64,000 nucleotides of DNA, taken from a bacterium. Its GTDB lineage: Bacteria; Armatimonadota; Zipacnadia; Zipacnadales; UBA11051. The stretch's first letter is position 1, and every line of letters begins with the position of its first letter. The notes under the pieces are model-generated. The model ran no database searches. It saw nothing but the letters and a program-made list of their open reading frames with translations, and was not told where the DNA came from. This document shows positions 8,664 to 56,080 of this stretch, piece after piece. The translations under genes were made by a program, and so were the position numbers. The stretch spans positions 1-64,000 of the forward strand of contig JAUVVY010000012.1 in assembly GCA_030604405.1 (NCBI GenBank), written 5' to 3'.

Positions 8664-8727
8664 CTGTGGTGACTCGCCAGGAGCCGACTTCATTGCATGC
8701 TTGCCGGGGCGAAGTGCCAAAGCCGCT

Positions 8728-8879
8728 TATTCACGAACGCGTAGCTCGGCCTGACCTGCGCTTGGCGCAGGGCAGGTGAGAACGCGAGGGGTACCTGCGC
8801 CAGAGGCGTGGGTCAGCGTTCTCAGCTTCCCGTTCGACAGGCTCACGGCCCTGAGCAACGTCGAAGGGCAGCCCGAGGC
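8728..8879 (+). repeat. repeat A, copy 1: composite palindrome carrying two nested repeats
   Basis: The backbone is the same as at 17826-17903 (inverted) and 55997-56080. It has ACGCGTAGCTCGGCCTGACC, an inner palindrome around CTGCGC..GCGCAG, GAGAACGCGA, GCGTTCTCAGCTTC and CAGCCCGAGG. In the two simple copies GAGAAcGCGA and its complement are separated by a few bases. Here that loop holds a family-B palindrome (about 8788-8815), and the junction CAGCTTC/CAGCCCGAGG holds a 39-bp family-C element (8830-8868). The whole 372-base gap 8572-8943 shows no gene; the open frame across it is repeat read-through joined to ackA. Confidence 0.85.
8830..8868 (+). repeat. 39-bp repeat C, copy 1, inserted in repeat A
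   Basis: The element begins CCGTTCGACAGG and ends GCAACGTCGAAGGG. It is an imperfect palindrome: CCGTTCGAC pairs with GTCGAAGGG, and GCTCA with TGAGC. Removing exactly these 39 bases restores the uninterrupted repeat A seen at 56062-56078 and, inverted, at 17828-17844. Other copies are at 32679-32717 and 39301-39337 (inverted). Confidence 0.88.
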
Positions 8880-8943
8880 TTCTCTTAACCGCTTTACGAA
8901 TAATCCGTGCCGGAGCGCTTGCAAAAACAGGGGATTGAAGACA

Positions 8944-17825: not shown

Positions 17826-17903
17826 GACCTCGGGCTGGAAGCTGAGAATGCTATCGCATTCTCACCTGACCTGCGCTTAGCGCAGGTCAGGCCGAGCTAC
17901 GCG
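17826..17903 (-). repeat. repeat A, copy 2 (uninterrupted)
   Basis: The reverse complement reads GCGTAGCTCGGCCTGACC, the CTGCGC/GCGCAG palindrome, GAGAATGCGATAGCATTCTC and AGCTTCCAGCCCGAGGTC. It lacks both insertions found in copy 1, so it serves as an empty site. Its edge abuts the stop codon of the GT2 gene that ends at 17904. The rest of 17691-17825 shows nothing clear. Confidence 0.85.
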
Positions 17904-32663: not shown

Positions 32664-32733
32664 AGCATTGACAGGCTGCGGTTCGGCAGGCTCACCGCCC
32701 TGAGCAACGTCGAAGGGGAAAGCCTGTCCTGCG
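32664..32733. repeat. repeat E copy 2, interrupted by repeat C
   Basis: GCATTGACAGGCTG (to 32678) and GAAAGCCTGTCC (from 32718) are the two halves of the palindrome found intact at 26664-26700. They are separated by exactly 39 bases. The remainder of 32535-32739 shows no gene. Confidence 0.85.
32679..32717 (+). repeat. 39-bp repeat C, copy 2, inserted in repeat E
   Basis: It begins CGGTTCGGCAGG and ends GCAACGTCGAAGGG. It has the same length as copy 1 and differs at about three positions. It sits in the loop of the GACAGGCT/AGCCTGTC palindrome. Confidence 0.88.
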
Positions 32734-39283: not shown

Positions 39284-39946
39284 TCAGTCCTCCTCCTGTG
39301 CTTCGACGTTGCTCAGCACCGTGAGCTTGTCGAACGGCAGCCTCGCCTGAAGCTGCCGCCATTGGGTCCTGTTCAGCCGACATCTTTCGGCTTCGAGGAT
39401 TGCCTCAAGCTGCGTCACCGCGTCATCCAGATCGTCGTTCACCACAATGTATTCAAACATGCCTATATGCTTGAACTCTTTGCGGGCGCTGTCCAAGCGT
39501 CTGGCCGTCGCATCTTCCGACTCGGTGCTGCGCCCCTGTAGGCGTCGGACTAATTCCTCCCACGACGGCGGTGCGATAAATACCAACGCCGCCCGGCCGC
39601 CCATGAGCTGCCGAACACTACGCGCGCCCTGGTAGTCTATCTCCAGGGTGATATCCGTCCCGGACGCAAGCGCCGCTTCGACCGGCCCGCGTGGGGTCCC
39701 GTACCAGAGGTCCTGGTGCACCCGGGCGTATTCCAACAACTCGCCCGCCGCGATCATTCGCCTGAATTCCTGTAGGCTCACAAAGCGATATTCCCGGCCG
39801 TCCTGCTCACCGGGTCGTGGCTGCCGCGTCGTGCACGACACCGATCTGGCAACTTCGGAATGCCGGGCCAGCACGCGCTCGATCACGGTGCCTTTGCCCA
39901 CACCCGAAGGCCCTGATACGACCAGCAATACTCCGCTCTTACGCAC
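39284..39946 (-). CDS. gmk: guanylate kinase with repeat-derived C terminus
   Basis: 220 residues from GTG 39946, with AGGAGAAAGGG upstream. Walker A is SGPSGVGKGT; SCTTRQPRPGEQDGREY binds GMP; the lid has LQGRSTESEDATARRL. It phosphorylates GMP to GDP. The usual protein ends soon after the ILEAERCRL-type helix. Here the final residues LPFDKLTVLSNVEAQEED are encoded by the 39-bp repeat C (39301-39337 on this strand) plus a few codons. The repeat has thus supplied a new C terminus and stop without hitting the catalytic core. The coaBC ribosome site lies over the last codons. Confidence 0.95.
   Translation of the reverse strand: MRKSGVLLVVSGPSGVGKGTVIERVLARHSEVARSVSCTTRQPRPGEQDGREYRFVSLQEFRRMIAAGELLEYARVHQDLWYGTPRGPVEAALASGTDITLEIDYQGARSVRQLMGGRAALVFIAPPSWEELVRRLQGRSTESEDATARRLDSARKEFKHIGMFEYIVVNDDLDDAVTQLEAILEAERCRLNRTQWRQLQARLPFDKLTVLSNVEAQEED
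39301..39337 (-). repeat. repeat C, copy 3, within the gmk 3' end
   Basis: The reverse complement begins CCGTTCGACAAGC and ends GCAACGTCGAAG. Thirty-seven bases align with copies 1 and 2, with the final GG replaced by CA. As in copy 2 the left flank reads AGGCTG. Confidence 0.85.
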
Positions 39947-55996: not shown

Positions 55997-56080
55997 ACGC
56001 GTGGCTCGGCCTGACCTGTGCTAAGCGCAGGTCAGGTGAGAACGCGACTTATCGCGTTCTCAGCTTCCAGCCCGAGGTCC
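55997..56080 (+). repeat. repeat A, copy 3 (uninterrupted)
   Basis: ACGCGTGGCTCGGCCTGACC, the CTGTGC/GCGCAG palindrome, GAGAACGCGA-CTTA-TCGCGTTCTC and AGCTTCCAGCCCGAGGTCC. It has neither nested insertion. The upstream AATAATTCAC also resembles the flank of copy 1. The 403-base gap 55864-56266 contains only this and repeats B and D. Confidence 0.87.

Follow-up and report, generated by a model that had tools for sequence, protein, structure and literature searches.

A 39-bp double hairpin of Armatimonadota as a probable, very small non-autonomous mobile element inserted into hairpin loops 3' of CTG

In the 64,000-nucleotide stretch of DNA analysed here (the window), one copy of a repeat, repeat A, is interrupted by a unit of exactly 39 bp, and two other copies of the same repeat read straight through the corresponding junction. 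Is this unit a mobile element in its own right, or is it a part or a cargo of the repeat that harbours it? The stretch is part of a metagenome-assembled genome of 4.37 Mb in 96 contigs (G000; class Ca. Zipacnadia, Armatimonadota), which was compared with a congener (G001), also a metagenome assembly, with flanks ~93% identical to those of G000. The features of the window are the following (^ marks the junction).

8830..8868, plus strand: 39-bp unit, subfamily 1; two half-hairpins, with stem covariation over 72 copies
8830-8848, plus strand: half-hairpin 1, CCGT-TCGACAGGCTC-ACGG
8849-8868, plus strand: half-hairpin 2, CCCT-GAGCAACGTCGA-AGGG
8741..8878, plus strand: repeat A core around the unit, consisting of GTAGCTCGG, arm P2, arm P3 and CAGCTTC^CAGCCCGAGG; the junction lies in the mini-hairpin loop GCT-TC^C-AGC
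8721..8913, plus strand: composite of 193 bp, wholly absent at the orthologous site of G001 (contig C43)
17826..17903, minus strand: repeat A copy without the unit, reading through the junction
55997..56080, plus strand: repeat A copy without the unit, reading through the junction
32679..32717, plus strand: subfamily 2 copy of the 39-bp unit (CGG/CCG stem), lodged in the loop of a hairpin of GTRG-REP type
32670..32728, plus strand: host hairpin arms GACAGGCTG ... GAAAGCCTGTC around the subfamily 2 copy
39299..39337, minus strand: subfamily 3 copy of the 39-bp unit (TGCT/AGCA as its second stem), lying in frame at the 3' terminus of the gene for guanylate kinase
39284..39946, minus strand: guanylate kinase gene (gmk); the Pfam domain ends at residue 187 and the insert starts from about residue 203

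The unit at 8830-8868, CCGTTCGACAGGCTCACGGCCCTGAGCAACGTCGAAGGG, is situated between CAGCTTC and CAGCCCGAGG and splits CAGCTTC^CAGCCCGAGG with single-base precision, while both copies without it, at 17826-17903 (minus strand) and 55997-56080, read through as CAGCTTCCAGCCCGAGG; the initial annotation had described the split junction and the two unfilled copies in the same way. Of the two further occurrences of the unit that it had listed, the one at 32679-32717 (plus strand, 3 mismatches) stands, and the one given from 39301 had been started 2 bp short, its true extent being 39299-39337 on the minus strand (5 mismatches). The best match to the unit in 20 first-order Markov windows, used as a chance control, had 12 mismatches. 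Genome-wide, the full unit is present in 40 copies (none with the reversed-pattern control), and its 13-base core, TTCGRCARGCTCA, occurs 196 times (once for the reversed pattern), of which a subset was read. The filled junction at 8830 is real, but it is not unique, since 11 of the 45 parsed repeat A cores carry the plain unit at this point, and 4 more carry a larger insert at the same junction. The notion that the unit is a mere part of repeat A was rejected, the 40 copies being spread over several hosts. A search of Rfam with seven repeat A loci gave no match to a known RNA family, and TTCGACAAGCTCAG, CTGAGCTTGTCGAA and TTCGACAGGCTCAG, looked up by their letters in the literature, were found in no paper.

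The 39-bp unit is composed of two abutting half-hairpins with stems of 4 bp and conserved loops of 11-12 nt, and its ends are fixed, CCG or CGG on one side and GGG or GCA on the other in nearly all of 72 copies. The stems covary among these 72 copies from two genomes: pair 2-18 is C-G in 51 and G-C in 19, pair 20-39 is C-G in 60 and T-A in 7, and pair 21-38 is C-G in 62 and G-C in 7, counts that do not stand for independent events, as related copies share changes. The two conserved loops are also complementary to each other, so that a single long hairpin is possible as well, and this long form is indeed what is predicted for a lone 39-mer (folding energy of one variant -9.4 kcal/mol; another variant has z near 0); the double-hairpin form therefore rests on the covariation in related copies.

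The unit occurs in four settings: for the most part within repeat A or the loop of a second hairpin, and otherwise inside other unit copies or in gmk. The junction reads TTCTCAGCTTC^CAGCCCGAGG in repeat A (e.g. at 8830), GGGCTG^GAAAGCCC or, in reverse, CGGGCTTTC^CAGCCCG in the loop of the second hairpin (e.g. at 32679), and CCGTTCGA^CAGGCTC inside another unit copy, whereas the fourth setting is the in-frame copy at the end of the guanylate kinase gene (39299). This second hairpin is made up of GTRG and GTCGGGCT-TTCC-AGCCCGAC (e.g. GCGTAGGTCGGGCTTTCCAGCCCGAC), with 23 unfilled examples in the stretches read, and we classify it as a GTRG-REP because it begins with GTRG. The reverse complement of the repeat A junction is GGGCTG^GAAGCT, which means that the first two settings share one target in opposite orientations. 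The insertion point lies 3' of CTG on one strand (CTG to the left or CAG to the right) in 66/72 copies, which correspond to about nine distinct contexts rather than to 66 independent events, many hosts being copies of the same repeats. This rule spans hosts as unlike as the REP hairpin in both orientations, repeat A, the unit's own loops and gmk. When the flanks are joined, the junction falls in an apical loop in 61/72 copies versus 56% of nearby positions, an excess that is modest because the surroundings are rich in hairpins.

Nested units were found at L105, L121, L122, L190 and L211, the inner site of L105 being empty in G001. At three of these loci (L121, L122 and L211) a 23-bp monomer (CCTGCCCTGAGCTTGCCGAAGGG) is lodged in the second loop of a 39-mer at CCCTG^AGCAACG, which amounts to three-level nesting.

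G001 was searched with the right flanks of 30 filled loci and with the unit itself. Between the two assemblies, both of many contigs and of metagenomic origin so that repeats can be misjoined, a difference of exactly 39 bp was seen at seven orthologous sites where both genomes retain the host repeat, and none of them shows target duplication. Five sites are filled in G000 and empty in G001 (L124/L169, L113/L160, L103/L168, L105/L173 and L118/L159), and the converse holds for two others (L197/L027 and L198/L263), the direction, gain or loss, being deduced from the rarity of the filled state. L105/L173 involves a nested pair, of which G001 lacks the inner copy. Some of these sites differ further between the genomes, in the third arm (L113/L160), the right-hand arm of the host (L118/L159) or the second arm (L198/L263). 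Three sites, gmk among them, are filled in both genomes, and the gmk insert consists of 13 in-frame codons (PFDKLTVLSNVEA) near the C-terminus. The same loop can also carry different inserts: at L125/L165 it is occupied by the 39-mer in one genome and by a 26-bp relative in its counterpart, at L209/L015 the 39-mer is opposed to a second repeat A core, and at the site of 32679-32717 G001 has a different short loop; the pairs of L110, L112 and L126 were left out as evidence on account of their poor alignments.

These exact differences at orthologous loci that lack the unit and retain the host repeat, together with the consistent ends and the gain or loss of precisely 39 bp in both directions without target duplication, bear out the mobile element that the initial annotation had suggested, and we consider the unit itself to be very probably mobile. 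The same annotation had taken the contrast of filled and empty copies within the window as the record of an insertion at 8830, a reading which did not survive the comparison: G001 lacks the entire 193-bp composite (8721-8913), and a fresh insertion at 8830 was consequently rejected.

Judged by its sequence, repeat A appears to derive from the host GTRG-REP (GTAGCTCGG ... GCTTCCAGCCCGAG) by the addition of two further hairpin arms. The empty core of repeat A is predicted to fold at -30.3 kcal/mol (z -8.2), with the mini-hairpin GCT-TCC-AGC still at the junction. The copies of the window (8741-8878, 17826-17903 and 55997-56080) fold so that covarying arms meet at a junction. Among repeat A copies, P2 and P3 are exchanged as whole arms; the hairpins substituted at these positions in different copies (CCTG-hairpin-CAGG) are unrelated, even between the orthologs L198/L263. 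Repeat A at 8721-8913, L106 and L122 has TAGCCCGAATAATTC-like ends and their inverse, and the empty orthologs of L106 and L122 show TA on both sides, a pattern less evident at other sites; repeat A may thus be a TA-targeting miniature transposon.

We propose that the 39-bp unit is probably a very small non-autonomous mobile double hairpin that is inserted into hairpin loops 3' of CTG. Its target would be the point immediately 3' of CTG, which is GGCTG^GAA in both the GTRG-REP host and repeat A, and CCTG^TCGA in the first loop of the unit itself. Hairpins would extrude from single-stranded DNA during replication or repair, and a trans-acting nuclease or strand-transferase would cut the loop of the host and join in an excised or copied unit, a cut-and-join reaction that would resemble those of the single-strand Y1 (HUH) enzymes. 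It is from the lack of target duplication together with the location in loops that we infer a single-strand nuclease or strand-transferase acting on loops, and this single-strand loop mechanism is put forward tentatively, as a conjecture somewhat short of an even chance. Once inserted, the unit would be copied as cargo whenever its host repeat moves (repeat A seems to act like a miniature transposon), and exchange among repeats would probably copy it as well.

Exchange alone could be imagined to account for the present distribution: after a few ancient insertions, conversion or template switching between ectopic repeats would now shift the 39 bp along with the arms, and the unit would be immobile today. 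We regard this as possible, though rather unlikely. It agrees with the joint change of unit and third arm at L113/L160, the second arm differing at L198/L263 and the right half of the host at L118/L159, with the wholesale swapping of P2 and P3 among copies and with the identity of every repeat A junction. However, L124/L169 keeps its unusual arms to either side of the unit, and among the other filled copies even the best matches the empty site L169 exactly over just 9 bp to the left and 12 bp to the right of the junction. Exact homology of 9 + 12 bp is below the need of ordinary homologous exchange. Moreover, conversion leaves unexplained why the same CTG rule applies in gmk, in the unit's own loops and in both orientations of the REP hairpin. 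Since the donor homology at L169 is too short and unlike hosts share the CTG rule, real insertion accompanied by secondary exchange between repeats is favoured. The swapped arms and the arm differences in several of the seven pairs imply that exchange between repeats does occur or that the assemblies are misjoined.

Which enzyme would carry out the insertion? The initial annotation had noted no transposase in the window; the only Y1_Tnp match of the genome, a RAYT-like gene, indeed sits elsewhere, on contig C2 (L009:1242-2123). Downstream of this gene a tandem array of a GTAG-tagged repeat with a 33-bp period was observed. The initial annotation had raised the possibility of mobilization in trans by a RAYT, the Y1 transposase that serves GTRG-REPs. 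In accordance with such a role, two exact copies of the host hairpin, itself a GTRG-REP, lie just upstream of the single Y1_Tnp gene; TnpAREP proteins need folded single strands, which they cut at CT or CA near a hairpin and transfer (PMC8266576), a specificity that is compatible with a cut after CTG without proving one; and the lack of target duplication fits movement of the IS200/IS605 type (PMC2817692). The unit, however, has no GTRG head, and neither GTAG nor GTRG adjoins the unit hairpin, the ends being those given above in nearly all of the 72 copies. The core motif was found within about 1.5 kb of Y1 in 0/30 fetched Y1_Tnp loci (31 genomes), and one further Y1 stretch, among five of G001, has a single core motif. 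G030, a genome 84% complete, holds 86 core motifs and gave no Y1 match, and the counts of Y1 and of the motif are uncorrelated (Spearman 0.17, p 0.37). The direct link to RAYT is thus not supported and appears unlikely; an indirect one may exist, since the hairpin that hosts the unit is a GTRG-REP and stands next to the one RAYT-like gene of the genome.

A route by way of RNA and reverse transcription, reportedly proposed for the small dispersed repeats (SDR elements) of cyanobacteria, would be consistent with the compensatory stem changes, the loop-to-loop insertion and the nesting, all reminiscent of that proposal. The reverse transcriptase domain PF00078 is nevertheless absent from the five motif-rich genomes G000, G001, G017, G026 and G030, and we hold this route to be very improbable. 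Least credible is that repeat A alone moves as a miniature transposon with the unit as its passive cargo: the congener lacks the whole composite at 8830, L106 and L122 and TA repeats mark the ends at L106 and L122, but the seven orthologous sites that differ by 39 bp with the host repeat in both genomes refute this as a full account, while it remains true for part of the copies.

Insertion into loops might extend beyond the 39-bp unit. One single-strand activity would then insert unrelated short palindromes (the unit, the 19-23-bp monomers and arms P2/P3) 3' of CTG in hairpin loops, a generalization that we consider doubtful. If true, such a hairpin-into-loop system would build nested hairpins and move elements shorter than any transposon end.

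In a scan of public genomes, close matches fall in Ca. Zipacnadia of the Armatimonadota. The core is found 196 times in G000, 155 times in G001, 86 times in G030, 54 times in G017 and 26 times in G026, and other congeners have 2 to 5, near background. Its distribution is patchy: scattered relatives have many cores and three congeners almost none, and neither Y1 nor reverse transcriptase is a correlate. G017 belongs to another bacterial family, and there too hairpin loops contain nested monomers of the element family. The assemblies of the Phycisphaerae SM23_33 (L221:3094-3128) and the Proteobacteria SZUA-178 (L224:3708-3742) each hold a single exact match of 35 bases to the unit, which may be due to transfer or contamination.

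Among known elements, the SDRs come closest in size, nesting and precision, and the double-hairpin elements of organelles in structure; the unit is probably a mobile double hairpin like the cyanobacterial SDRs and the mitochondrial double-hairpin elements. SDRs are reportedly 21-27 nt long, as opposed to 39 bp for the unit, and they share with it a length of tens of bp, compensatory hairpin changes, precise insertion, self-nesting and embedding in miniature transposons. PMC4390886 cites Elhai et al. 2008 for the precise insertion of SDR5 within HIP1. The unit is likewise precisely present or absent at seven orthologous sites and nested in its own copies. In contrast to SDRs, it consists of two half-hairpins, has its CTG site in the loops of GTRG-REP hairpins and occurs in Armatimonadota instead of cyanobacteria, and no reverse transcriptase was found in the five motif-rich genomes.

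The organelle double-hairpin elements suited to comparison include those of Allomyces. According to PMC2670323, PMC2800124 and PMC4478555, organelle elements and palindromes resemble the unit in having two adjacent small hairpins, in being optional in relatives and in being non-coding, whereas the unit resides in a bacterial chromosome and follows a hairpin-loop target rule. Two adjacent hairpins with conserved pairing are evident in the unit from covariation, while single-copy folds prefer one long hairpin.

The GTAG/CGTC REPs (PMC3733652) and the RAYT-linked REPs (PMC2817692) are, like the unit, short and abundant palindromes, and REP dimers inside other palindromes as well as CGTC REPs without a known transposase have been described (PMC3733652). 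Unlike them, the unit has no terminal GTAG or CGTC and was not near Y1 in 30 loci; the host hairpin is a GTRG-REP, the guest is not. A CGTC-tagged REP has a terminal CGTC and an 8-9-bp stem, whereas the CGTC of the unit is internal (positions 30-33) and its stems are 4 bp. Nor does the unit have the 15-30 bp terminal inverted repeats and target duplication of a MITE, duplication being absent at the seven exact sites. Rickettsia palindromic elements (RPE; PMC3733652) share in-frame insertion into genes with the gmk copy, the one coding copy of the unit examined, but differ from the unit in size and sequence.

The 39-bp unit is a candidate for one of the smallest mobile elements. Research on REPs, SDRs and organelle palindromes has yet to explain how sequences a few tens of bases long can move when they have no transposase of their own. 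To this question the unit of Ca. Zipacnadia brings exact filled and empty pairs in both directions between close species, a constant rule for the target and a host hairpin associated with a RAYT, a combination with which single-stranded hairpin loops can be tested biochemically as targets.
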